Source: a virus. From it: 24,262 nt of DNA. Location of the stretch: positions 1-24,262 of the IMG/VR virus record IMGVR_UViG_3300049478_000089; one strand, 5' to 3'. Shown one piece after another: positions 13,276 through 24,262 of the stretch (within the stretch, counting starts at the first letter, position 1; every line of letters starts with the position of its first letter). The notes under the pieces were generated by a model that had not been told where the DNA came from, did not search any database, and worked only from the letters and a program-made list of their open reading frames with translations. The position numbers and the translations under genes are program-made.

Positions 13276-13616
13276 GAGTCCTCGTCTGCGGCTCCCGGGA
13301 TTGGGTAGACGCGGCTGCCATTCGTGCCCGCTTGTCAAAGCTTCCAAACGACACAGTCATCGTCCACGGGGCAGCACCCGGTGCGGACTCCCTCGCTGGG
13401 CGCGAAGCAGTCAAGCTAGGCTTTGTTGTCGAGGCATATCCGGCTGCATGGGGGCTGTATGGTCGAGCGGCCGGGCCAATCCGCAATCGCCAGATGCTCG
13501 ATACGAGCCCTGATCTTGTCATCGCATTTCATTATGACATTGCGTCGTCTCATGGCACGCGAGACTGTGTCCTCGAGGCCAAACGCCGTGGGATTGCCGT
13601 GGAGATACTTCCATGA
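13272..13616 (+). CDS. SLOG-family (YspA/DUF2493-like) nucleotide-binding protein
   Basis: 114 residues from GTG 13272 (GTGA overlap). It carries the DUF2493/YspA pattern: VLVCGSRDW, VIVHGAAPGADSLAG, VEAYPAAWGLYGRAAGPIRN and AF. The G-S-R-D-W start and the H-G-A-x-G-A-D loop form the Rossmann-like SLOG nucleotide-binding site. SLOG proteins bind or cleave nucleotides or NAD-like ligands. In phages their role is undefined; a modified nucleotide or a defence signal is a possible ligand. The next gene, a methyltransferase, is coupled (ATGA at 13613-13616). Confidence 0.75.
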   Translation: MRVLVCGSRDWVDAAAIRARLSKLPNDTVIVHGAAPGADSLAGREAVKLGFVVEAYPAAWGLYGRAAGPIRNRQMLDTSPDLVIAFHYDIASSHGTRDCVLEAKRRGIAVEILP

Positions 13617-14362
13617 CTAAGGCTAAACAGCAAGTCCTCTTGAGGGATGCGCTAGCTGCAACCAAACGTCTGGAAGAAGACAGTGTTGATCTAATCATTC
13701 TCGATCCGCCATACAACACGACTAGCCAGCGCTGGGACAAGACTGATCCTGTTACACCAGAGCTGGTCTGGGAGTTGAACAGAGTACTTGCGCCAACCGG
13801 TAGCCTGTACGTGTGGTGTGGGATTGGCGAGAAGTCGCAGTCGCTCATTCGTTGGTTTCCGCTCTTCGCAGAGGTCTTTACGTTCAAAGATCTCATTACA
13901 TGGAAGAAGCGAAGAGGGATTGGAGGACGAAGAGGATGGCTCTACACTCGAGAAGAACTGATGTGGTTCGTAAAGGACAATCATCAGTTTATCTGGAACA
14001 CCGAGGCTCAATACTCTGAGGAGCCTAATCAGTTCAAGGTGGGAATGTCAGGAACGAGGGTTCATCCCTTCAAGCGGCTCACCAATGTGTGGACTGATAT
14101 CCCAGAAACCTTGACTGACAAAGGTATTGCGCACTATACGCCTAAACCGCTTCTGGCAATCCAAAGGCTCATACTTTTGCACACGCAACCTGGAGACCTC
14201 GTGTATGATCCCTTCGTTGGATCTGGAACAACACTAGTTGCATGCAGGCTGCTCGGGCGTTGTGGCCTAGGGGTCGACAACGATCCAGCGTCTGTCGCGG
14301 AAGCTGGGCGGCGGTTAGCTGCGGCAATCAAGTCGAAAGCAGTCCAAATCCTGCAGAGATAA
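13613..14362 (+). CDS. Beta-class DNA methyltransferase (N6-adenine or N4-cytosine)
   Basis: 249 residues. Motif IV, DPPYN, is at 31-35 and the SAM-binding motif I, DPFVGSGTT, at 199-207. The order IV before I defines the beta class, which methylates N6 of adenine or N4 of cytosine; DPPY favours adenine. The region between (about 60-180, KKRRGIGGRRGW, HYTPKP) would hold target recognition. No endonuclease gene is adjacent, so this is probably an orphan phage enzyme that protects DNA or regulates it. ATG 13613 overlaps the SLOG stop. Confidence 0.85.
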   Translation: MTKAKQQVLLRDALAATKRLEEDSVDLIILDPPYNTTSQRWDKTDPVTPELVWELNRVLAPTGSLYVWCGIGEKSQSLIRWFPLFAEVFTFKDLITWKKRRGIGGRRGWLYTREELMWFVKDNHQFIWNTEAQYSEEPNQFKVGMSGTRVHPFKRLTNVWTDIPETLTDKGIAHYTPKPLLAIQRLILLHTQPGDLVYDPFVGSGTTLVACRLLGRCGLGVDNDPASVAEAGRRLAAAIKSKAVQILQR

Positions 14363-14971: not shown

Positions 14972-15349
14972 ATGGCAACAACACTCCTTACCGCTGTCTT
15001 CTCTACATTCGACTTCGTTGGCTTCCATCAGTGGCTTTCTGCGCCCGACGAGGTTGACTATCTCCGGCATCGGCATCGGCATCTGTTCAAGGTACGCGTC
15101 GAGATTGCTGTTGAGCACACAGATCGTGCAATCGAGTTTCACATGCTCAAGCGTAACCTGCTAGAGCACGTCCTCTCAGGGCGCAAGGTGAACGTGTTCG
15201 ATGAGCTGGAGCTGGACTCTGCTTCCTGCGAGGACGTTGCCTTGCAGATTCTCCAGGCAGTTGTTGAGTGGCATCCCGGCCGGCCCTACTACCGTGTGGA
15301 AGTGAGCGAGGATGGCGAGAATGGCGCCATCGTAGAGGCCAAAGCATGA
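14972..15349 (+). CDS. Possible T-fold (6-pyruvoyl-tetrahydropterin-synthase-like) protein
   Basis: 125 residues, ATG 14972, GGAG ten bases upstream. The features GFHQWLSAPDEVDYLRHRHRHLFKV, IEFHMLKRNL and a later SCEDVA resemble a family of short proteins with a QueD-like layout: His in an N-terminal strand, H-x-H near residue 35-38, and a Ser-Cys-Glu at the start of the second helix. The acidic end YYRVEVSEDGENGAIV would be a final strand. QueD-like enzymes bind pterins, which fits the 7-deazaguanine cassette downstream, but the usual catalytic Cys is not in its expected place. The fold is a suggestion. Confidence 0.5.
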   Translation: MATTLLTAVFSTFDFVGFHQWLSAPDEVDYLRHRHRHLFKVRVEIAVEHTDRAIEFHMLKRNLLEHVLSGRKVNVFDELELDSASCEDVALQILQAVVEWHPGRPYYRVEVSEDGENGAIVEAKA

Positions 15350-15486: not shown

Positions 15487-16686
15487 ATGTTGGACTGGTA
15501 TCGCAGACTGATGACTTCAGACACTCCCACTCCGGCAATCATCGAAGTCCATACTTCCGACCGCGATCTCTTCAAGCGGTGCAGACGACGCTTCGCGTGG
15601 GCGTCTACTCTGCGCAACAATCTCATCAGGATTGGCCCTGAGCAGCCTGCCTTCTTTCTCGGCACTGGCTTCCACTTTGGACTTGAGGACTGGTGGGGCT
15701 ATCGGCGCTTTCCCCATCCGGCCTTGGCTTTCGCAGCCTACTACGACGCACACCGTGCAGACGACTTGCCTGACGAGGCCGATGATCTCCTGATCCTTGC
15801 CACCGACATGCTGAGTTACTATGTCGAGGAGTGGTTAGAGGAACACCCTGAGCCCTATGAGACTCTTTGGGTGGACGGCAAGCCGCAGGTAGAGATTGAG
15901 GTTGCGATCAGTCTCAATGACATTCTGCTCGAGGCAGCGAAGGGCCACCAGAAGGTGTGGTTGATCCCTCTGATCGATAAGTACTCAATCGAGTACGTCA
16001 CAACCTTCGACCGCGTTGTCATTGATAAGCACGGACGGATCTTTGGTCTTGACTACAAGACCGCTACCTCGTTCGATGAGCTGAACTTGCAGACAAACCC
16101 GCAGGCCGGAGCCTATGACTGGGCAATGGATCTCTTCTACACGCCGGTTGGCTACAAGCCCGAGGGGATCATCTGGCAACAGTTCAAGAAGGCAGTCCCG
16201 AAGCCACCTGAGTACGTGAACATTGGGAAGAAGAACGAAGGCTTTAGCCTCGACGTACGTCAGTCGACTACATACCGGCTTTATCGGCGTGCGCTGATCG
16301 AGCACTATGGCACAGTCCCCGAGAAGTACTACAGCTTCTTGGCCATCTTGGGTGATGCACAGGACGAGAATGGCGACCGCTTCATCCGCCAGGATGTCCT
16401 GCGGCGCAATCAGACGCAAAGGGAGGTGGAACAAGCAAAGATTGTCCAAGAAGTCCTGGAGATGCTCGATCCGGGGCTTCCGCTGTATCCAAACCCAACG
16501 AAAGACTGCGGCTGGGACTGCGCCTTCAAGGCTCCGTGCCTTGCCAATGATGACGGATCGGACTTCGAGCACATTCTTCGCACTGAGTATGCCCAGTGGG
16601 CTGGGTACAAAGATGACTGGCGATCGAAGGTGAAGTACCCTGATGCCGCATCCGGTGAGCCCACCGATACCCTCACCTTTACCTAG
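15487..16686 (+). CDS. Cas4/RecB-like PD-(D/E)XK exonuclease with Fe-S cluster
   Basis: 399 residues, ATG 15487 after CAAGGACT. The nuclease core is FDRVVIDKHGRIFGLDYKTATS, giving D175, D189 and K191 of a D-x(n)-D-x-K site, with H63 (FHFGLEDWW) as the upstream histidine. Four cysteines, C32 near the N-terminus and C341, C345 and C351 at the C-terminus (C-x3-C-x5-C), match the 4Fe-4S layout of Cas4 and AddB-type nucleases. It would resect DNA ends to single strands for recombination or replication. The RecA-fold ATPase and DUF669 protein follow, a familiar phage recombination set. Confidence 0.75.
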   Translation: MLDWYRRLMTSDTPTPAIIEVHTSDRDLFKRCRRRFAWASTLRNNLIRIGPEQPAFFLGTGFHFGLEDWWGYRRFPHPALAFAAYYDAHRADDLPDEADDLLILATDMLSYYVEEWLEEHPEPYETLWVDGKPQVEIEVAISLNDILLEAAKGHQKVWLIPLIDKYSIEYVTTFDRVVIDKHGRIFGLDYKTATSFDELNLQTNPQAGAYDWAMDLFYTPVGYKPEGIIWQQFKKAVPKPPEYVNIGKKNEGFSLDVRQSTTYRLYRRALIEHYGTVPEKYYSFLAILGDAQDENGDRFIRQDVLRRNQTQREVEQAKIVQEVLEMLDPGLPLYPNPTKDCGWDCAFKAPCLANDDGSDFEHILRTEYAQWAGYKDDWRSKVKYPDAASGEPTDTLTFT

Positions 16687-16698
16687 GAGAACACTTCA

Positions 16699-16893
16699 AT
16701 GGCAGCTACCAAGCCGTTCCTCACTGTCGAGTTTGAGACAGACCGGGAGACCAAGGGTACGATCCGCTACAAGGAGGATGAGCCTGCAGATGGCTCTCGC
16801 CCAGCGATCGGGACACTCTACATCACTAAGACAGCGCTTGCCAAGACGAACGGGGTGAAGCGCATCCGTGTGACTGTCGAGGCGATTGGCTAA
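16699..16893 (+). CDS. Small beta-rich protein of the recombination module
   Basis: 64 residues, ATG 16699 after CTAGGAGAAC. Sequence KPFLTVEFETDRETKGTIRYKEDE, GTLYITKTAL and KRIRVTVEA is a run of beta strands. Short proteins of this type occur between phage exonuclease and RecA-like genes and may bind single strands or protein partners, but no function is known to me. Its TAA overlaps the next ATG (TAATG). Confidence 0.6.
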   Translation: MAATKPFLTVEFETDRETKGTIRYKEDEPADGSRPAIGTLYITKTALAKTNGVKRIRVTVEAIG

Positions 16894-18065
16894 TGCCAGC
16901 TCCGCCTAGACCTGTAGTGCGGCTTCGATCCCGAGCTGCGCCAACAGCATCACCGCTGCCGCTTGACGATCAACCAGTCAAGCGTACGCCTGTCGTTCCG
17001 TTCACCATTGGGCCAGTGCGCCCGATAGGTGAGCGTACGCTCAACATCATGATCTACGGACCGTATGGCCATGGTAAGACCACGTGGGCGGCCACAGCAG
17101 AAGACGTCGAGTCAATGCGGGACGTGCTGTTTATCAACGCCGAGTCGGGCGACATGAGCCTGACAAACAGACGTGCGCTTGATGTCGTCAACATCAATCG
17201 CTACGACCAGCTTGCCCGCATCTTTGACTATCTGACTCTCCACTGCAAGTGGCGCGACGAAGGCAACATCGATAAGCTGCTCGAGTACGAGAGGCAGCTC
17301 AAGGCAACAGTGATCCCTGAGGCCGACCAGACGCCTCCGACAAAGGCTGGCAGAACTTGGTTCGAGGAGCAGCGCATTCGCCTCGGCAAGCCGATGGATG
17401 AGCCATTCCTCTATCGGACAGCGATCCTCGACTCGATCAGCGAGCTGCATAAATACCTCATCTACAAGTTCACCGGCGTTGACATCGGCAAGACGAAGCT
17501 CGATGACGAGATGGAGAAGATGGAGGATTGGCAGGTTGCGCAGGAGATGTTCCGACTTCTCGTGCGCTCCTTCCGCGATCTGCCCATGAACACCATCTTC
17601 GTGTCAGCCGAGGCAATCGAACCGGCAGAGCGCAACCGCAGGCGCAATCCGCTTGCAGGCCAGTCGCTGCCGAAGTTGGCAGGCCAGATGGCAGGCGATG
17701 TTGCTGGCTTCATCGACATCGTTGGCTACTTCCTGCGTGAGATTGGGAAGGATGGTGAGATCAAGCGGAGACTCTACCTCGGCGCAGGCTACGAGGGATG
17801 GATCAGCAAGCATCGCTTCGAGAACCTGCCAAACCTCGAGTACGTTGACAATCCTACGCTCGCTTCGCTCATCGACCTCGCACGAAAGGATGCAGACAAT
17901 GGCACCAGTCAATCGGCCTACACAGGCCAGCCGATCCGCCGCACCGTCCCGGCGGCCGTCCACCCCGCCCGCCCAGCAGCGGCGAACAGCCGCCGTACGG
18001 CCAGCGGCCCGGCGGCCCGAGCCGGAACCCGAAGAGACCACACCGTTCGACGCCCAGGAAGGTGA
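16893..18065 (+). CDS. RecA-fold ATPase, Sak4-like single-strand annealing/recombination protein
   Basis: 390 residues. YGPYGHGKTT (55-64) is the Walker A (G56-x4-G61-K62-T63) and AILDSISEL (D180) the Walker B. This is the AAA_24/Sak4 type, which phages use for single-strand annealing with an SSB-like partner. A later QMAGDVAGFIDIVGYFLREI is the core beta strand region typical of the family. From about residue 336 the frame continues through a Pro/Arg/Ala-rich tail that overlaps the next gene by 167 bases, so the true C-terminus could be shorter in function. ATG 16893 shares bases with the previous stop. Confidence 0.75.
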   Translation: MPAPPRPVVRLRSRAAPTASPLPLDDQPVKRTPVVPFTIGPVRPIGERTLNIMIYGPYGHGKTTWAATAEDVESMRDVLFINAESGDMSLTNRRALDVVNINRYDQLARIFDYLTLHCKWRDEGNIDKLLEYERQLKATVIPEADQTPPTKAGRTWFEEQRIRLGKPMDEPFLYRTAILDSISELHKYLIYKFTGVDIGKTKLDDEMEKMEDWQVAQEMFRLLVRSFRDLPMNTIFVSAEAIEPAERNRRRNPLAGQSLPKLAGQMAGDVAGFIDIVGYFLREIGKDGEIKRRLYLGAGYEGWISKHRFENLPNLEYVDNPTLASLIDLARKDADNGTSQSAYTGQPIRRTVPAAVHPARPAAANSRRTASGPAARAGTRRDHTVRRPGR

Positions 18066-18507
18066 CGAGCAGGGAGAGGGCTTTCTCGAAGCCGAGGGCG
18101 AACTTCCGCAGATCATCGATCTGTCTGACATCGAGGCAGCGACCTACGAAGTCGTCCCTCGAGGCATCTACGAGGGCTACATTGACTCGGTCGAGTATGG
18201 CCTCTCTCAGTCGAAGGGGCTCCCTATGCTCACCTGGGTCTGCAAGTTTGATCACGAGGGCAAGGAGCGGACTCTCCGCTACTACACTACCCTCACAGGC
18301 GAGGGCGCAGGCCGCACGAAGGCCACGCTTGCACGCCTCGATCCTGAGCTCGACCTTGCCGCACTCGAGCCGGATGCCATGGACGAGCACTTCGGCGGAC
18401 TCGAAGTCAAGATCCGTGTGACCATTCGTCCAGATCGGGACGACCGCAAGATCAAGCGGAACAACGTGGCAGACGTCTATCCGCTCGAAGAGGAGTTTGC
18501 TCAGTAG
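17899..18507 (+). CDS. DUF669-like SSB-type recombination partner
   Basis: 202 residues. Residues about 70-200 resemble the DUF669 family: PQIIDLSDIEAATYEVVPRG, YEGYIDSVEYGLSQSKGLPM, LTWVCKF and IRVTIRPDRDD, with the closing VADVYPLEEE. DUF669 proteins accompany phage annealing proteins and probably bind single-stranded DNA. The first 70 residues are a Pro/Arg-rich linker (RRPSTPPAQQRRTAAVRP) then acidic. ATG 17899 follows GAAAGGA by eight bases; ATG 17890 is in frame but too close to it. It overlaps the ATPase gene by 167 bases. Confidence 0.65.
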   Translation: MAPVNRPTQASRSAAPSRRPSTPPAQQRRTAAVRPAARRPEPEPEETTPFDAQEGDEQGEGFLEAEGELPQIIDLSDIEAATYEVVPRGIYEGYIDSVEYGLSQSKGLPMLTWVCKFDHEGKERTLRYYTTLTGEGAGRTKATLARLDPELDLAALEPDAMDEHFGGLEVKIRVTIRPDRDDRKIKRNNVADVYPLEEEFAQ

Positions 18508-18657
18508 TCTCTCGTGGACTTTGCTGGTCGCACTATAAGGTTGGACCTGGACACGCACTAACCGTCGTGAGAGTGGCGCCAACCTACAGCCGTGCGGATA
18601 ACGACTGCCACACTACGGTGGCTGTGGACGCCAGCACATTCTCTAAGAGGAGGACTG
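18508..18657 (+). promoter_or_regulatory. Intergenic region with a leader structure before the 7-deazaguanine block
   Basis: A possible -10 box, TATAAG (18534-18539), has no convincing -35. Just after it, GGTTGG (18539-18544) pairs with CCAACC (18579-18584), enclosing CGCACT (18554-18559) that pairs, with one bulge, with AGTGGCG (18572-18578). A smaller stem, GCCAC with GTGGC, lies near 18607-18622. The ribosome binding site AAGAGGAGGAC ends the region. It probably marks a new transcript start or a regulatory leader. Confidence 0.4.
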
Positions 18658-18894
18658 ATGAACCTCGTTCGCCTTGGCCACTACTTCGTTCCCACCGACA
18701 ACCATGGTCATGGCATGTGCCAGACAGCACTGGTTGTTGGTGTAGATGCGGATGCCAACAGAGTCAATCTTGCTGTCTGGTCGCATGATGGCAGCGCTGA
18801 GGTCCGGCGCAACGTCATTGTCCTCGAGGATCCACGTGACGTGCCAGACTCTGCGTCCTTTCACCTCTCGGGCTACTGCCCTTGGAAGCGGTGA
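18658..18894 (+). CDS. Hypothetical protein, 78 residues
   Basis: ATG 18658 follows AAGAGGAGGACTG. The text VRLGHYFVPTDNHGHG, TALVVGVDADANRVNLAVWSHDGS and RRNVIVLEDP with SGYCPW is a small strand-rich fold; the D-x-V-N-L-x-V-W-x-x-D-G pattern recurs in uncharacterised phage proteins. It is the first gene of the modification block, three bases before the QueD start, so it may be co-expressed with it. Confidence 0.6.
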   Translation: MNLVRLGHYFVPTDNHGHGMCQTALVVGVDADANRVNLAVWSHDGSAEVRRNVIVLEDPRDVPDSASFHLSGYCPWKR

Positions 18895-18897
18895 ACC

Positions 18898-19323
18898 ATG
18901 AAGATCGGCAAGACCTTCACCTTCGATGCAGCACATCGACTTCAAGACCACGAAGGCAAGTGCCGCAACCTTCACGGCCATACCTACAGCGTCGTCGTGA
19001 CTTTGGAAGGTGAGCTCGACGACCCAGGGAGCGGCAGATCAGGTGCCGGCATGGTCCTAGACTTCAGCCGGCTTGGCGAGTGGTGGAAGCCACTCAGTCA
19101 CGTCCTCGACCACGCGGCGCTACTCCAAGAGACCGACCCCCTGGTGAACCTCCTCACCCTTCTGAGTCCGCCTGTCCGAATAACAACCTTTCGCTTCCCG
19201 CCCACTGCTGAGTGCCTTGCAGACTGGATCTACGACGATCTGGCCTCGTGGCTCGCGCCGATGGTTGTGCATGCCTTCTCGGTTCGTGTCTATGAGACAC
19301 CGACTTCTTGGGCCGAGCGATGA
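18898..19323 (+). CDS. queD: 6-carboxy-5,6,7,8-tetrahydropterin synthase (QueD)
   Basis: 141 residues. FDAAHRL, GKCRNLHGHTY (C22 as the catalytic thiol; H13, H26 and H28 as the zinc ligands), MVLDFSRL, VLDHAALL (D71, H72) and VRVYETPTSWAE form the complete QueD signature. The enzyme converts 7,8-dihydroneopterin triphosphate to 6-carboxytetrahydropterin, step two of 7-deazaguanine synthesis after FolE. ATG 18898 is the natural start, with MKIGKTF leading into the motif. The stop overlaps a tiny Cys-rich gene. Together with QueE and FolE it makes three of the four preQ0 enzymes in this window. Confidence 0.9.
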   Translation: MKIGKTFTFDAAHRLQDHEGKCRNLHGHTYSVVVTLEGELDDPGSGRSGAGMVLDFSRLGEWWKPLSHVLDHAALLQETDPLVNLLTLLSPPVRITTFRFPPTAECLADWIYDDLASWLAPMVVHAFSVRVYETPTSWAER

Positions 19324-19427
19324 GGCGCAGTTGTAAGTGCCTTCTGCCGACTTGCGGCCACTGCCGGAAGTATCACAGCGGACCGGGTGGCGCTTGCACT
19401 AAGTGCTCCTGTGAGGTGTTCATATGA
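19320..19427 (+). CDS. 35-residue Cys-rich zinc peptide
   Basis: ATG 19320 overlaps the QueD stop. The peptide has eight cysteines and two histidines in pairs (C-x-C, C-x2-C, C-x2-C-x-C around GHC and TKC), enough for one or two zinc ions. It ends in ATGA with a membrane peptide, an arrangement that mirrors 10522-10763. No family is recognised. Confidence 0.5.
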   Translation: MRRSCKCLLPTCGHCRKYHSGPGGACTKCSCEVFI

Positions 19428-19573
19428 AGTCGCTCTGGGATCTTACTACTCAGTTCTTCGCCCTTTGCTTTGCACTTGCCTTGGTAGTCGCAGTCCTCTT
19501 GACGACTGCAATCTTTGCAGGGATCTGGTGGGCAACCTTAGTGAGGGCTGCTGAGTGGTGGCTGACATGGTAA
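19424..19573 (+). CDS. Membrane peptide, 49 residues
   Basis: ATG 19424 overlaps the Cys-rich peptide stop. After MKSLWDLTTQ comes one long hydrophobic segment (FFALCFALALVVAVLLTTAI), followed by a Trp-rich end (GIWWATLVRAAEWWLTW). One pass is likely. It overlaps the QueE start by 19 bases. Position inside the que block is notable but its role is unknown. Confidence 0.5.
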   Translation: MKSLWDLTTQFFALCFALALVVAVLLTTAIFAGIWWATLVRAAEWWLTW

Positions 19574-20409
19574 CAACCTCAGTTCCCATTGCAGAGATCT
19601 TCGGGCCAACAATCCAAGGTGAAGGTGCGCTTGCAGGTGTTCCAACCTACTTCCTTCGTGTTGGCGGTTGTGACTTCTCGTGCGTCTGGTGTGACAGCGC
19701 TCACGCAGTCCTTGCAGAGGAAGTCCGTAAGCTGCCGCACTGGAGCGAGGAAGAGATCCTAGAGCAGCTCATCCACCTCTCGCATGGCAAGCCCGGCCCT
19801 GACTGGCTGACAATCAGTGGCGGCAATCCTGCACTCTATGATCTTTCTATGGTTGTGCAGAGCTGGCAACATCGAAAGTCGCCGAGCGGCTGGGCAAGCA
19901 AGGTTGCAGTCGAAACACAAGGCACGAAGTGGCAGCCGTGGTTCGGAGACGTCAATCTTCTCGTTGTGTCGCCTAAGCCACCTTCGAGCACCATGAATAC
20001 CTCGGGTCTCGATGTCTTCATGCGCTGCGTGGCTGCTGCTGAGGAGAATTTCTGCTATCGACGTCTCCAAGACCCAGGTATTCCACCTGACGACTGGCGA
20101 ATGGTCTTCAAGGTCGTAGTCTTCGATGAGATCGACTACAGGTTTGCACGAGACCTCCACATGAGATGGCCGCTCATCAAGTTCTACCTCTCCTGTGGGA
20201 CTGCAATGGGCGGGCTGACTGGCGAGTGGTTGCCGAGCTGCAATAGACCCTCATTGAACAACGGCGGCTACGTCGACACCAAGGTTGACCTGCTTGCCCG
20301 CTACAGTTGGCTCGCCGAGCTTGCCATGAATGACTATGCGATGTCCGACGTTGCTGTCTTGCCGCAGCTCCATGCCCTGACTTGGGGCGCAAGAACAAGG
20401 GGTGTTTGA
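19555..20409 (+). CDS. queE: 7-carboxy-7-deazaguanine synthase (QueE), radical SAM
   Basis: 284 residues. IAEIFGPTIQGEGALAG leads to the radical SAM cluster motif GGCDFSCVWCD (C39-x3-C43-x2-C46), as in QueE. WLTISGGNPALY matches the substrate-binding region and VAVETQGT the conserved VETQGT strand. The enzyme rearranges 6-carboxytetrahydropterin to CDG, the substrate of QueC. GTG 19555, behind GAGGG, is the likeliest start; GTG 19558 and ATG 19567 are also in frame. The last codons run to one base before the FolE start. Confidence 0.85.
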   Translation: MVADMVTTSVPIAEIFGPTIQGEGALAGVPTYFLRVGGCDFSCVWCDSAHAVLAEEVRKLPHWSEEEILEQLIHLSHGKPGPDWLTISGGNPALYDLSMVVQSWQHRKSPSGWASKVAVETQGTKWQPWFGDVNLLVVSPKPPSSTMNTSGLDVFMRCVAAAEENFCYRRLQDPGIPPDDWRMVFKVVVFDEIDYRFARDLHMRWPLIKFYLSCGTAMGGLTGEWLPSCNRPSLNNGGYVDTKVDLLARYSWLAELAMNDYAMSDVAVLPQLHALTWGARTRGV

Positions 20410-20410
20410 C

Positions 20411-21043
20411 GTGGCGCAAGCAGGAGAAATAGGTGTTCGGATTAGGACGCACATAGGCCCACAGAGCATTGAGGATGACATCAAGTCGATCCTTGAGCAG
20501 CTAGGCCTCGATCCATCGAGTCAACACTTTGTCCGAACGCCTGAGCGTGTTGCAAGAGTCTTGCGAGCTTACGTCCAGCCGAATGATCTCGACTCTCTTC
20601 TAGCTGATGGCTTTGAGGATGACGACCCTGAGGAGGGCGAGACACATGAGAAGGTTCTCGTCGTTCAGACCAACATTCCCCTCATGGGACTATGTGCACA
20701 TCACCTTCTCCCATTCTTTGGGGCAGCGGCGGTCGGCTATCTGCCGCGTGATCGCGTGGTCGGCCTATCAAAGCTCACCCGTCTTGTCTATGCGGCTGGT
20801 CATCTGGCCCCGACGACTCAAGAGCACATCACGAACCTCGTTGCGAGCGCCCTCTATGCCTCAAGGGCCATCAACCCGCGGGGAGTTGCGGTTCTGACAA
20901 GCGCGCTTCACGGATGCATGGCAGTCCGCGGAGTTGAGGCACCTGCTACGCGAACGATCGTGTCTGCTATCCGTGGCGACTTCAAAGACTATCCGGCACT
21001 AGAGGCGAAGTTCATGGACTTAGCTAAGGAGGGTCTTGGATGA
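20411..21043 (+). CDS. folE: GTP cyclohydrolase I (FolE)
   Basis: 210 residues. The zinc ligands C95 and H98 lie in LCAHHLLPF, and C169 in LHGCMAVRG; VVGLSKLTRLVYAA and TTQEHIT are the other FolE signatures. The enzyme opens the GTP ring to dihydroneopterin triphosphate, the first step of 7-deazaguanine (and folate) synthesis. A phage copy would supply the precursor for the QueD enzyme 18898-19323. GTG 20411 follows AAGGGG by eight bases; GTG 20402 is in frame but sits within that box. The end overlaps the next gene (ATGA). Confidence 0.9.
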   Translation: MAQAGEIGVRIRTHIGPQSIEDDIKSILEQLGLDPSSQHFVRTPERVARVLRAYVQPNDLDSLLADGFEDDDPEEGETHEKVLVVQTNIPLMGLCAHHLLPFFGAAAVGYLPRDRVVGLSKLTRLVYAAGHLAPTTQEHITNLVASALYASRAINPRGVAVLTSALHGCMAVRGVEAPATRTIVSAIRGDFKDYPALEAKFMDLAKEGLG

Positions 21044-21312
21044 GTGATCCCTTCTTCCGGCGATACCATCGTGCACTCGCAGATGCAGCTGACATTGTCA
21101 CGTCCCGCGACGCAGAGGGCCGCAACGCTTCGATGGGAATAGAGGCTCAGTACGAGTCAACTGTCTTTGTCATCGACATCGTGCGGATGAAGTGCCAGCG
21201 GGCCAAGTCGTATCTCGCAGCGGGCAACCTGGAGAAGTTCAGAGAAGAGATGCTCGACTGCATGAACTACTCTGCGTTTGCTGCGGCCCTTGAAGACCGA
21301 GGTGAGGAGTGA
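21040..21312 (+). CDS. Nmad1/DUF1599-like small protein
   Basis: 90 residues, ATG 21040 after AAGGAGGGTC, overlapping FolE. The layout ADIVTSRDAEGRN, STVFVIDIVRMKCQRAKSYLAAGNLEKFREEMLDCMNYSAFAAALED, that is a variable start, then I/V-R-M-K-x-x-R and a closing D-x-x-N-Y-x-x-F, is like the nucleotide-modification-associated (Nmad1/DUF1599) or MazG-like helical family. Iyer and colleagues linked such domains to nucleotide-modification operons. The placement between FolE and the DpdA-like gene agrees with that. No metal-binding acidic motif is certain, so this is a suggestion. Confidence 0.5.
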   Translation: MSDPFFRRYHRALADAADIVTSRDAEGRNASMGIEAQYESTVFVIDIVRMKCQRAKSYLAAGNLEKFREEMLDCMNYSAFAAALEDRGEE

Positions 21313-22118
21313 TGCCAGCGCCGCAGTTTGCACCAGTCGCGCCACTTCCAGCTCTGCGTACACTGGCCAAAGCCGGAGTCCTTGGTAACTATCAACTTCT
21401 GATTGCACCGATGGTGCTCGAACATGCGATGGAGTACTTCCACTTCTTCACCGGGGAGCATGACGATCAGTTCGTCATCCTCGACAACGGCGTGATTGAG
21501 CTTGGCCATTCACTTAGTGCCCCTGATCTTCATTATGCAGCTGATGTCGTAGGGGCTCATGTTGTGGTGATGCCTGATACTATCGACGACGCGGAAGCGA
21601 CGATACAGCAGGTCGAAGATGGCCTGGAGACCTTCCGCAAGTACGATACAGCAACCGACACTCTAGGGGTCGTCCAAGGTACGACAATGGGAGAGTGCCT
21701 ACGATGCGCAGAGAGTCTAGTGAAGGCGGGGGTGGACTGGCTGGCCGTACCGCGCGGCCTCACACCGCATCTTGGCAGCAGAGTGCCACTGGTGAGACAG
21801 GTAGCTCAGTTCGGGCTGCCCATCCACATCTTGGGCTTCAGCGAAGATATGAAGGACGACATCGAGACAATGATGTCACACCCGCTAATCAGGGGGATCG
21901 ACGCAGCAACGCCAATCTGGATGAAGGGCCTTCTGCCAGACGAGCCACCGAGAGTAGCACGCTTCGGACGGCGCCCCTTCGACTTCTGGCAGCGCCCACC
22001 GGAGGCAATGGGGCCGGAGTTCACACGAAACGTCGAAACGGTACGCGCCTGGATCAGCCACGAGTGGCACGCCCAGATCGATGCCCAGGGTGTCCATACA
22101 GGCGTGGTCGAACGGTAG
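21312..22118 (+). CDS. dpdA: DpdA-like DNA (tRNA-guanine transglycosylase-type) deazaguanine transglycosylase
   Basis: 268 residues. Phage DpdA-type text is present: YQLLIAPMVLEHAMEYF, FVILDNGVIELG (D58, E63), DVVGAHVVVMPDTIDD, LGVVQGTTMGECLRCAESLVKAGVDWLAVPRGL, IHILGFSEDMKDD and RGIDAATPIW. This is a TIM-barrel queuine-transglycosylase relative that swaps guanine in DNA for a 7-deazaguanine such as preQ0. Direct linkage to FolE, QueD and QueE strengthens the call. The length fits short phage DpdA forms; bacterial DpdA is longer. ATG 21312 is preferred to GTG 21309. It overlaps the polymerase start by 55 bases. Confidence 0.8.
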   Translation: MPAPQFAPVAPLPALRTLAKAGVLGNYQLLIAPMVLEHAMEYFHFFTGEHDDQFVILDNGVIELGHSLSAPDLHYAADVVGAHVVVMPDTIDDAEATIQQVEDGLETFRKYDTATDTLGVVQGTTMGECLRCAESLVKAGVDWLAVPRGLTPHLGSRVPLVRQVAQFGLPIHILGFSEDMKDDIETMMSHPLIRGIDAATPIWMKGLLPDEPPRVARFGRRPFDFWQRPPEAMGPEFTRNVETVRAWISHEWHAQIDAQGVHTGVVER

Positions 22119-24262
22119 GATCTGACGGTCCACCAGATGCGCCACTCGTTGTCATAGGTGAGGCACCCGGTCGGGACGAGGTTGCAAGTGGAAGGCCATT
22201 CGTCGGTCGATCGGGCAAGCTCCTGAATGCTGCACTCGCTAGGGCCGGTATCGACCGTGCGGATGTCTACACGCTGAACGCGCTGCAGTGCCAGCCGACT
22301 GAACAACCTCCGTCTCGCACTGCCATTGACGCATGCCGCGTAAGACTGGCCGAGGAGGTCCTTGCACATCCGCGCAAGGTCATCCTCACGATGGGCAACT
22401 CAGCAATGCGAGGCTTCCTGGGCGAACACAGCTTCAAGATTACATCGAAGCGCGGTCATCCCATCGATCTAGAAGAACTTGGCATCATCCTGCCGACCTT
22501 CCACCCTGCCTCGATCCTCCGCAATCAAGGTGAGTATCCACGGTGGCTCGAGGATCTCAAGTATGCAGCTAAGTTGCTCGAGAATGGCCGCGACAGTCTC
22601 AAGTCACCAGGCAAGCCAACCGCATATATCATGCTCTTGGGGCCAGAAGAAGACGTCTACTACCCTAAGATAGGCGAGTTGAAAGCTTGGGACAACAACA
22701 TCGTCGATGGCAGCCAACTTCGAGATTGGCCAATCCGCAGAGTAGTCACTGGCATACCAGCAGCAATCCGTGCTGTGGACTTGCTCCTGCAGCAGGAAGT
22801 TGTCGCAGCTGACATTGAGACAGCATATAGCTACTCGCCGCGGCTCGGCAAGATCCTTGCGTTGGCTGTTGCATGGAGTCCGTTCGAAGCTGTTGTGTTC
22901 AGCGAAGGCCTCCTCGACTCGCCTGCCTTCCGCCCGCATCTCGTTCGTTTGCTCACAAGCAAAGGTCCGCTTGCTGTGGGCCACAACTGGAAGTGGGACT
23001 CATCGTATCTGCGTCATCAATACCTCGATGGGAAGTGGCCTGCCGAAGGCATGATCGTCAATGCGCATGACACGCTTCTTGAGCACTACTGCCTCGATGA
23101 GACAAAAGGTACGCATGCCCTCGAGAGTCTTGCAGGCGACCTGCTAGGGGCGGAGGACTACAAGTATGTTGTTCGCAAGTATGGTGTGGGCGACCAAGGC
23201 TACGAGAACGTACCACGTGAGATCCTCTATCCATATGCAGCGCTGGACACCACGCACACCTTCGCTCTCCACGAGATGCTGTGCCCAAGGGTGCAGGCAA
23301 GCCTTGGACTGAAGAAGCTCTACAATGATCTCCTGCTCCCCGCGTCGATCTTCCTCCAGAAGGTTCAAGACTACGGCCTGTGGGCAGATCGAGACTTCGT
23401 CGAGCAGCTTGACAAGATGCATGGCGATCGAGTGGTGGCAGCACGAGAGGCGTTGATGCGAGAGGTCGCACCCATTTGGGACACCGAGGAATACATGGCG
23501 TCGAGATGGGCAACGAAGAAGATACCTGACGGCTACAATGGGCAAAACTGGAAGCACACGAGCTTTGTCCTCGAGAAGTTGATCGGCTGGGTGCCGATGA
23601 ACACGAACGAGCGGACCCTTCGCGACCTCGACCAGACCGGCAAGGACCAATCTGCGACCTTCGGATACAAGGCAAAGAACTATGCCCGTGGCCATCCCAA
23701 CCGGAAGGTGAAGCTCAACTACCCGTACATCCAGGCTCTCATCGACTTGAGACTCGCTCGCCATGCGCACCGCATGCTTGTAATGCAGATCAAAGAGAAG
23801 ATCGAGCCGGATGGGCGCTTGCACACAACCTTCAACATGCACTCGACCGAGACTGGGCGATTGAGCTCCTCTGCACCCAACCTACAGAACCTTCCCGTGC
23901 CCGAGAAAGACGAGGAGCATCCGGCCCGAGACATCGTCGGGGCACCTCCGGGCCGTGTCATCATTGAGGCAGACTACAGCCAGCTTGAGTTGCGCATCCT
24001 CGCTCACTTTAGCGACGACGATCACCTCCTCGATGTCTACCGGGAAGGACGTGATCTGCATACCGAGCTCTCGATCGCCATTTGGGGTCCGGGGTTCACG
24101 AACTATCAGCGCGTTCGGGCCAAGGCTGTGAACTTCGGTATTGCCTACGGCCGTGGTGCTGGATCGATTGCAGCTGAGCATGACATTCCTGAAGAGGAAG
24201 CTGCAGAGATGCGGCGGACTTGGTTCAAGACGTTTCCCAAGGCAGCTGTTTGGCTAGAGAAG
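22064..24262 (+). CDS. polA: Family 4 uracil-DNA glycosylase fused to DNA polymerase I (3' end cut by the window)
   Basis: 733 residues to the window edge, with no stop. Residues 1-165 are a family 4 UDG: C7-x2-C10, C76-x14-C91 (the four 4Fe-4S ligands), GEAPGRDE at 32-39, FVGRSGKLL and FHPASILRN. Residues about 240-400 are the 3'-5' exonuclease: D250-I-E252, N308 with D312, and Y391-x3-D395. Then comes the family A polymerase: motif A, D637 (ADYSQLELR), and motif B, R683-x3-K687-x3-F691-x3-Y695, matching E. coli Pol I R754/K758/F762/Y766. Motif C lies beyond the edge. GTG 22064 puts the first Fe-S cysteine at residue 7. No AGGAGG is obvious; coupling to dpdA is likely. Confidence 0.85.
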   Translation, partial: MARPDRCPGCPYRRGRTVGSDGPPDAPLVVIGEAPGRDEVASGRPFVGRSGKLLNAALARAGIDRADVYTLNALQCQPTEQPPSRTAIDACRVRLAEEVLAHPRKVILTMGNSAMRGFLGEHSFKITSKRGHPIDLEELGIILPTFHPASILRNQGEYPRWLEDLKYAAKLLENGRDSLKSPGKPTAYIMLLGPEEDVYYPKIGELKAWDNNIVDGSQLRDWPIRRVVTGIPAAIRAVDLLLQQEVVAADIETAYSYSPRLGKILALAVAWSPFEAVVFSEGLLDSPAFRPHLVRLLTSKGPLAVGHNWKWDSSYLRHQYLDGKWPAEGMIVNAHDTLLEHYCLDETKGTHALESLAGDLLGAEDYKYVVRKYGVGDQGYENVPREILYPYAALDTTHTFALHEMLCPRVQASLGLKKLYNDLLLPASIFLQKVQDYGLWADRDFVEQLDKMHGDRVVAAREALMREVAPIWDTEEYMASRWATKKIPDGYNGQNWKHTSFVLEKLIGWVPMNTNERTLRDLDQTGKDQSATFGYKAKNYARGHPNRKVKLNYPYIQALIDLRLARHAHRMLVMQIKEKIEPDGRLHTTFNMHSTETGRLSSSAPNLQNLPVPEKDEEHPARDIVGAPPGRVIIEADYSQLELRILAHFSDDDHLLDVYREGRDLHTELSIAIWGPGFTNYQRVRAKAVNFGIAYGRGAGSIAAEHDIPEEEAAEMRRTWFKTFPKAAVWLEK

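Follow-up and report, generated by a model that had tools for sequence, protein, structure and literature searches.

A QueD-fold protein as a probable replacement for QueC in a phage 7-deazaguanine DNA-modification cassette

The stretch of DNA examined here (the window) is the complete IMG/VR record IMGVR_UViG_3300049478_000089, which comprises 24,262 bases and is itself a fragment of the genome of an uncultured phage. Judged by its gene content, the window holds a phage 7-deazaguanine DNA-modification cassette, in which FolE, QueD and QueE with their catalytic residues are accompanied by a DpdA-type transglycosylase. QueC is absent, and a second protein with the fold of QueD, here called DL, is encoded nearby. 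We think it probable that this is a guanine-replacing phage operon from which QueC has been lost, and that DL acts on 7-carboxy-7-deazaguanine (CDG), most likely by decarboxylation to 7-deazaguanine, with DpdA inserting the product. The central genes are:

14972..15349, + strand: QueD-fold protein (DL), the proposed QueC replacement and a putative CDG decarboxylase (phrog_17812, E=1.4e-20)
18898..19323, + strand: QueD, 6-carboxytetrahydropterin synthase (PF01242, 9.4e-33; TIGR03367, 92.2 bits, cut-off 89.25)
19555..20409, + strand: QueE, CDG synthase of the radical SAM type (TIGR03365, 219.8 bits, cut-off 206.1; phrog_2076, 3e-29)
20402..21043, + strand: FolE, GTP cyclohydrolase I (PF01227, 1.1e-44)
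21309..22118, + strand: DpdA-type DNA-guanine transglycosylase (fold, profile and invariant residues; phrog_19058/phrog_20335)

The catalytic residues of QueD are there (C22, H13/H26/H28, D71-H72 and E133), QueE has the cluster C39-x3-C43-x2-C46, and the diagnostic residues of FolE are C98/H101/C172. In addition, QueD and QueE exceed the NCBIfam equivalog cut-offs. A preliminary description of this DNA had recognized these genes, together with a DpdA-like gene, as a near-complete 7-deazaguanine cassette with QueC missing. The Pfam, PHROG and NCBIfam matches and the diagnostic residues confirm that QueD, QueE and FolE are genuine (its FolE residues C95/H98/C169 are the same three, numbered from a start three codons later), and the cassette as such is upheld by the DpdA-type transglycosylase identified beside them. 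QueC is indeed absent, but the presence of the QueD-fold gene at 14972-15349 instead indicates that the pathway is probably not merely incomplete. The gene content is that of a phage 7-deazaguanine cassette, although not one of the preQ0 type (FolE-QueD-QueE-QueC-DpdA), because QueC is absent.

QueC converts CDG to preQ0. The preceding enzymes, FolE, QueD and QueE, make CDG by an established pathway (PMC13329287). No QueC was found in the entire 24,262-base record by searches that detected the positive controls, nor in sister contigs that span the site. There are four contigs of this clade that do so, namely the window (24 kb), G001 (35 kb), G003 (34 kb) and G007 (9 kb), and all four lack the gene. 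Among the relatives, which are IMG/VR loci with the DpdA family of the window, QueC is present wherever the QueD-QueE cassette is spanned, except in these four. Together with the truncated contig G002 they form a single clade (support 100/100) nested among QueC-bearing relatives. The absence of QueC is thus a trait of the clade, in which the gene has been lost.

Three small genes of the window bear on the site of this loss:

18658..18894, + strand: SMALL78, a conserved 78-amino-acid protein directly 5' of QueD (comparison with relatives)
19320..19427, + strand: a 35-codon Cys-rich micro-ORF (Zn35), not conserved
19424..19573, + strand: a 49-codon micro-ORF (TM49), a putative membrane protein, not conserved

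SMALL78 directly precedes QueD in the window, G001, G003 and G007, and it directly precedes QueC in the relative G016, so that it pinpoints the place from which QueC has gone. An artefact of contig edges is ruled out, because the four contigs span the site and carry no remnant of QueC between a DUF669-like gene and QueD. SMALL78 can likewise be dismissed as a substitute for QueC, since it coexists with QueC in G016, and so can Zn35 and TM49, neither of which is conserved. The ratios of nonsynonymous to synonymous substitution rates between G001 and G003 are 0.15 for QueD, 0.08 for QueE, 0.03 for FolE and 0.04 for DpdA; in the other pairs, synonymous sites are almost saturated. The four genes have thus stayed under purifying selection after QueC was lost, and the pathway must still be in use without it.

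The QueC gene of G016 is itself split by approximately 590 bp that include a LAGLIDADG-like reading frame (GYFDGEGA; L029:596-2000). Perhaps this insertion is a mobile intron, although the split gene gave no Rfam match to a group I intron.

The gene for DL lies outside the region covered by the preliminary description (18898-22118), and phrog_17812 is annotated as 'unknown function'. The protein is homologous to gp040 of Cellulophaga phage phiST. A profile built without the clade of the window finds DL in the window at 3e-32 and also in G001 and G003, whereas shuffled open reading frames (ORFs) give no hits. The AlphaFold model of DL has a mean predicted local distance difference test score (pLDDT) of 84.8, and its best fold match is Escherichia coli QueD (4ntm/4ntk; E=1.7e-5, probability 1.00, TM 0.70). 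Comparison of the DL family profile with QueD gives E=1.9e-6. DL resembles E. coli QueD in its PTPS/T-fold, in its zinc-binding His triad (H19/H35/H37) and in its terminal Glu (E113). Unlike the E. coli enzyme, it is seen in alignments to lack both the catalytic Cys that precedes HGH and the Asp-His dyad, and its family carries an invariant Ser-Cys-Glu (85-87). Because the Cys and the dyad are gone, DL is predicted to be a QueD-fold protein that is unable to carry out the chemistry of QueD in the usual way. The phage also encodes a normal QueD.

The DL family and QueC are mutually exclusive across many phages. There are 15 QueE-bearing records with DL and QueC is found in none of them (0/15). 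These are the window, G001, G003, G033-G036 and eight complete genomes: phiST, ACP17, MA9V-3, BUCT-ZZ01, PA5oct, Ahp1, RHph_I1_18 and Bakedbeans. Conversely, DL is found in 0/49 QueC-bearing records, which include 0/47 relatives and neither 9g nor Dp-1. Many of these negative records are fragments, but the same search detects the expected DL carriers, and thus the negatives are meaningful. Fisher's test gives p ~3e-13 when records are counted with one near-duplicate dropped and phage Bipper counted against the association, a value that is illustrative only since the records are related. The carriers occupy three separate places on the DpdA tree, and in ACP17, BUCT-ZZ01, RHph_I1_18 and phiST the DL gene is located among the FolE, QueD and QueE genes.

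Sequence, fold and comparison thus provide the identities of QueD, QueE, FolE and DpdA, the loss of QueC, the presence of DL and its exclusion of QueC. The remainder of the proposed pathway is what we infer. FolE would convert GTP to dihydroneopterin triphosphate, from which QueD would form CPH4 and QueE would form CDG. DL most plausibly acts on CDG, since its gene is missing from phages that have QueC and accompanies QueE, and since its fold is a pterin-binding one. It would take the place of the lost QueC at this point, and removal of the carboxylate to yield 7-deazaguanine is the simplest and most likely outcome. After replication, DpdA would exchange guanine in the DNA for 7-deazaguanine (dDG), and dDG in virion DNA may protect the phage against host restriction. 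There is a precedent for the last step in phage CAjan, whose DNA is shielded from restriction by a modification that depends on dpdA (PMC6884629).

The cassette would otherwise work like known phage 7-deazaguanine cassettes, and what is new is the exchange of an enzyme for QueC, for which the evidence is good. An apparent gap in the pathway thereby becomes a specific and testable claim, namely that phrog_17812 takes the place of QueC where the pathway branches at CDG. If this is true, the choice between phrog_17812 and QueC decides which 7-deazaguanine enters DNA. Cui and colleagues reportedly described both dDG and the corresponding CDG modification (dCDG) in phage DNA in 2023, and are said to have predicted a CDG decarboxylase named DpdL. 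DpdL may well be the same enzyme as phrog_17812, given the same predicted step from CDG to 7-deazaguanine and a similar context of phages that lack QueC.

The insertion step would depend on the DpdA-like gene, whose product was modelled and aligned with 66 homologues from IMG/VR. The AlphaFold model (pLDDT 95.9) has as its best Foldseek matches in the PDB a series of tRNA-guanine transglycosylases (TGTs) as well as DpdA itself (7ui4, E=2e-7). The family profile also matches 7ui4 by sequence (E=9e-4), and the NCBIfam DpdA model NF041059 matches weakly (0.03). A search of the PDB with the single sequence gave only noise, and the family profile was required. Seven residues, three of them Asp, are invariant in 67 homologues (D59, N60, E64, D90, R158, H173 and D198), and Q123-G124, P148-R149 and H173-L175-G176 are conserved in the family. 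The motifs run in a TGT-like order of DN, PD, QG, PR, HxLG and ID, and we presume that they correspond to D102, D156, Q203 and D280 of the Zymomonas mobilis TGT. According to the model and these matches, the gene encodes a real transglycosylase of the DpdA/TGT superfamily. The preliminary description had proposed structure prediction of the barrel and active site as a check on this gene, and the outcome favours DpdA.

Bacterial DpdA (7ui4; NF041059) matches the window protein in fold with a probability of 1.00, and the aligned C-terminal half has His-Leu-Leu-Gly and Ile-Asp-Ser in common. The two differ in that identity is 14% and the bacterial proteins are 413-436 amino acids long, compared with 269 for the window protein. 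The phage enzymes DpdA1 (9g, Dp-1 and Bipper) and DpdA2 (nt-1) share the presumed function and the TGT superfamily. However, profile comparisons with these enzymes are at noise level, and no sequence relation to the window family is detectable. The substitutions S199A, S61G, H34P and V91T mark DpdA of the window clade. The idea that they betray a pocket for CDG was dropped, since phiST, MA9V-3 and Ahp1 show no clear convergence on them.

Pfam gives the window DpdA no name, and the family is unnamed in both Pfam and PHROGs. Pfam DUF6610 (PF20314), phrog_19058 and phrog_20335 match members of the family, and the label DNA-guanine transglycosylase is probably right for all three. With such DpdA-type annotation, many more phages with modified DNA would come to light in metagenomic data. 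One contig (L095) encodes two divergent DpdA-like genes, and DpdA of Rhizobium phage RHph_I1_18 (L123:6065-7333) is fused to a DUF3310 domain at its C-terminus.

A close parallel to the window is the gp036-gp042 region of phiST (KC821604), which also has QueD-QueE-FolE and no QueC. Its gp040 belongs to the DL family (phrog_17812) and its gp042 to the DpdA family of the window (profile E=1.5e-31). However, MazG and kinase genes are interleaved, DpdA has ~19% identity to that of the window, and the DL gene is located inside the cassette. Bacillus phage BSP7, Weizmannia phage Youna2 and Brevundimonas phage MaInes have the same DpdA family and the same order of exonuclease, Sak4-like ATPase, QueD, QueE, DpdA and PolA. 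These three differ from the window in having QueC just upstream of QueD and no DL.

Several observations weigh against a role for DL in place of QueC. In the window the DL gene is 3.5 kb upstream of QueD and outside the cassette. Decarboxylation is predicted from the logic of the pathway and from the step attributed to DpdL. Bipper lacks both QueC and DL, so loss of QueC without DL does occur, and Faecalibacterium phage Roos carries a DL homologue but no detectable QueE. The contigs of the window clade are fragments, so QueC could conceivably have moved to another part of the genome. Finally, glycosyltransferase-like genes beside DL in some phages could mean that the product derived from CDG is a different one. 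A separate candidate, gp4 of Bipper as a diverged QueD-fold substitute, was rejected because its profile comparison is at noise level.

One alternative is that QueC was simply lost and that DpdA inserts CDG itself (dCDG), with DL doing something else, such as pterin handling. CDG is the product of QueE, the clade substitutions S199A and S61G adjoin invariant residues of DpdA, and CDG insertion was suggested for Bipper, a phage with no QueC, by Hutinet et al. (PMC6884629); Bipper has no DL either. However, a bystander would not be expected to be so regularly exclusive of QueC. Moreover, the changes in DpdA are not clearly common to other DL lineages, and phiST retains the Ser beside the last Asp. 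Insertion of CDG is therefore unlikely. The preliminary description had allowed for a base other than preQ0, with CDG as its example. The first part still seems likely, but the presence of a QueC-exclusive DL gene makes 7-deazaguanine a more likely base than CDG.

Perhaps what DL does to CDG is not decarboxylation but a conversion or conjugation, which would yield an undescribed 7-deazaguanine that is glycosylated in some carriers. The genes that hint at this are group-1 glycosyltransferase-like and adjoin DL in ACP17 (L117:3972-5000), PA5oct (L120:2753-3814) and BUCT-ZZ01 (L119:5325-6491), where they possibly reflect further modification of the base. The sugar-nucleotide-like genes of G001 point the same way. 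We regard such a conversion as quite unlikely.

Supply of QueC activity or preQ0 by the host, with preQ0 inserted by the phage, is distinctly improbable. Many bacteria have QueC, and host participation has been proposed for other phages (PMC6884629). However, two scans of bacterial genomes with DpdA and the primase as queries found no relatives, and supply by the host does not predict that QueC and DL exclude each other across phages of unrelated hosts. It is very improbable that QueC is encoded in an unsequenced part of the genome, even though neither the window nor its sister contigs are complete, because the relatives have QueC in or near the cassette, G001 and G003 reach well past it on both sides without one, and the complete genomes with DL have no QueC. 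Phages that have pathway genes but no DpdA may boost queuosine in host tRNA (PMC6884629), but this is hardly credible as the purpose of the present cassette, where a dedicated DpdA-fold gene is in the operon and adjoins the DNA polymerase, and where a phage without QueC makes no preQ0 for queuosine.

The remaining annotated genes in and around the cassette are:

15487..16686, + strand: PD-(D/E)XK exonuclease of the flanking replication module (PF12705, 1.3e-11; phrog_1218, 4e-37)
16893..18065, + strand: Sak4-like AAA ATPase, with upstream synteny kept (PF13479, 4e-14; phrog_124, 5e-30)
21040..21312, + strand: 90-amino-acid protein at the site of the Nmad1-like gene of sister contigs, unrecognizable as Nmad1 (no profile match)
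22121..24262, + strand: uracil-DNA-glycosylase-like, 3'-5' exonuclease and family A DNA polymerase domains (PF03167, PF01612 and PF00476; phrog_17, 1e-92)

The preliminary description had also suggested that an Nmad1-like gene and two micro-genes could be new parts of the pathway. The window gene at 21040-21312 has no match to Pfam, PHROG or homologue profiles, including Nmad1/DUF1599 (PF07659), but the gene at this position in sister contigs is Nmad1-like (PF07659 at 4e-5, just under the cut-off; phrog_1485 at 1e-12). The name thus fits the sisters and not the window. Since none of the fetched loci holds a credible homologue of either micro-ORF, a role as new parts is unsupported for the window. 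In G001, the space between QueD and QueE that holds the micro-ORFs in the window is occupied by a gene for an SLT lytic transglycosylase whose N-terminus is hydrophobic (L001:7726-8187).

G001 also has genes for an acyltransferase, a DegT-like aminotransferase and a Gfo/Idh-like oxidoreductase between the helicase and the exonuclease (17695-20404, reversed; L102/L103). These resemble sugar-nucleotide biosynthesis genes, with families assigned by eye, and nothing equivalent was detected in the window. Conversely, the window has an N6/N4 DNA methyltransferase gene at 13613-14362, to which nothing in G001 or G003 was found to correspond. The ORF at 22121-24262 extends past the end of the contig and its start codon is ambiguous. 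It encodes a phage DNA polymerase A whose N-terminus carries a joined uracil-DNA-glycosylase-like domain.

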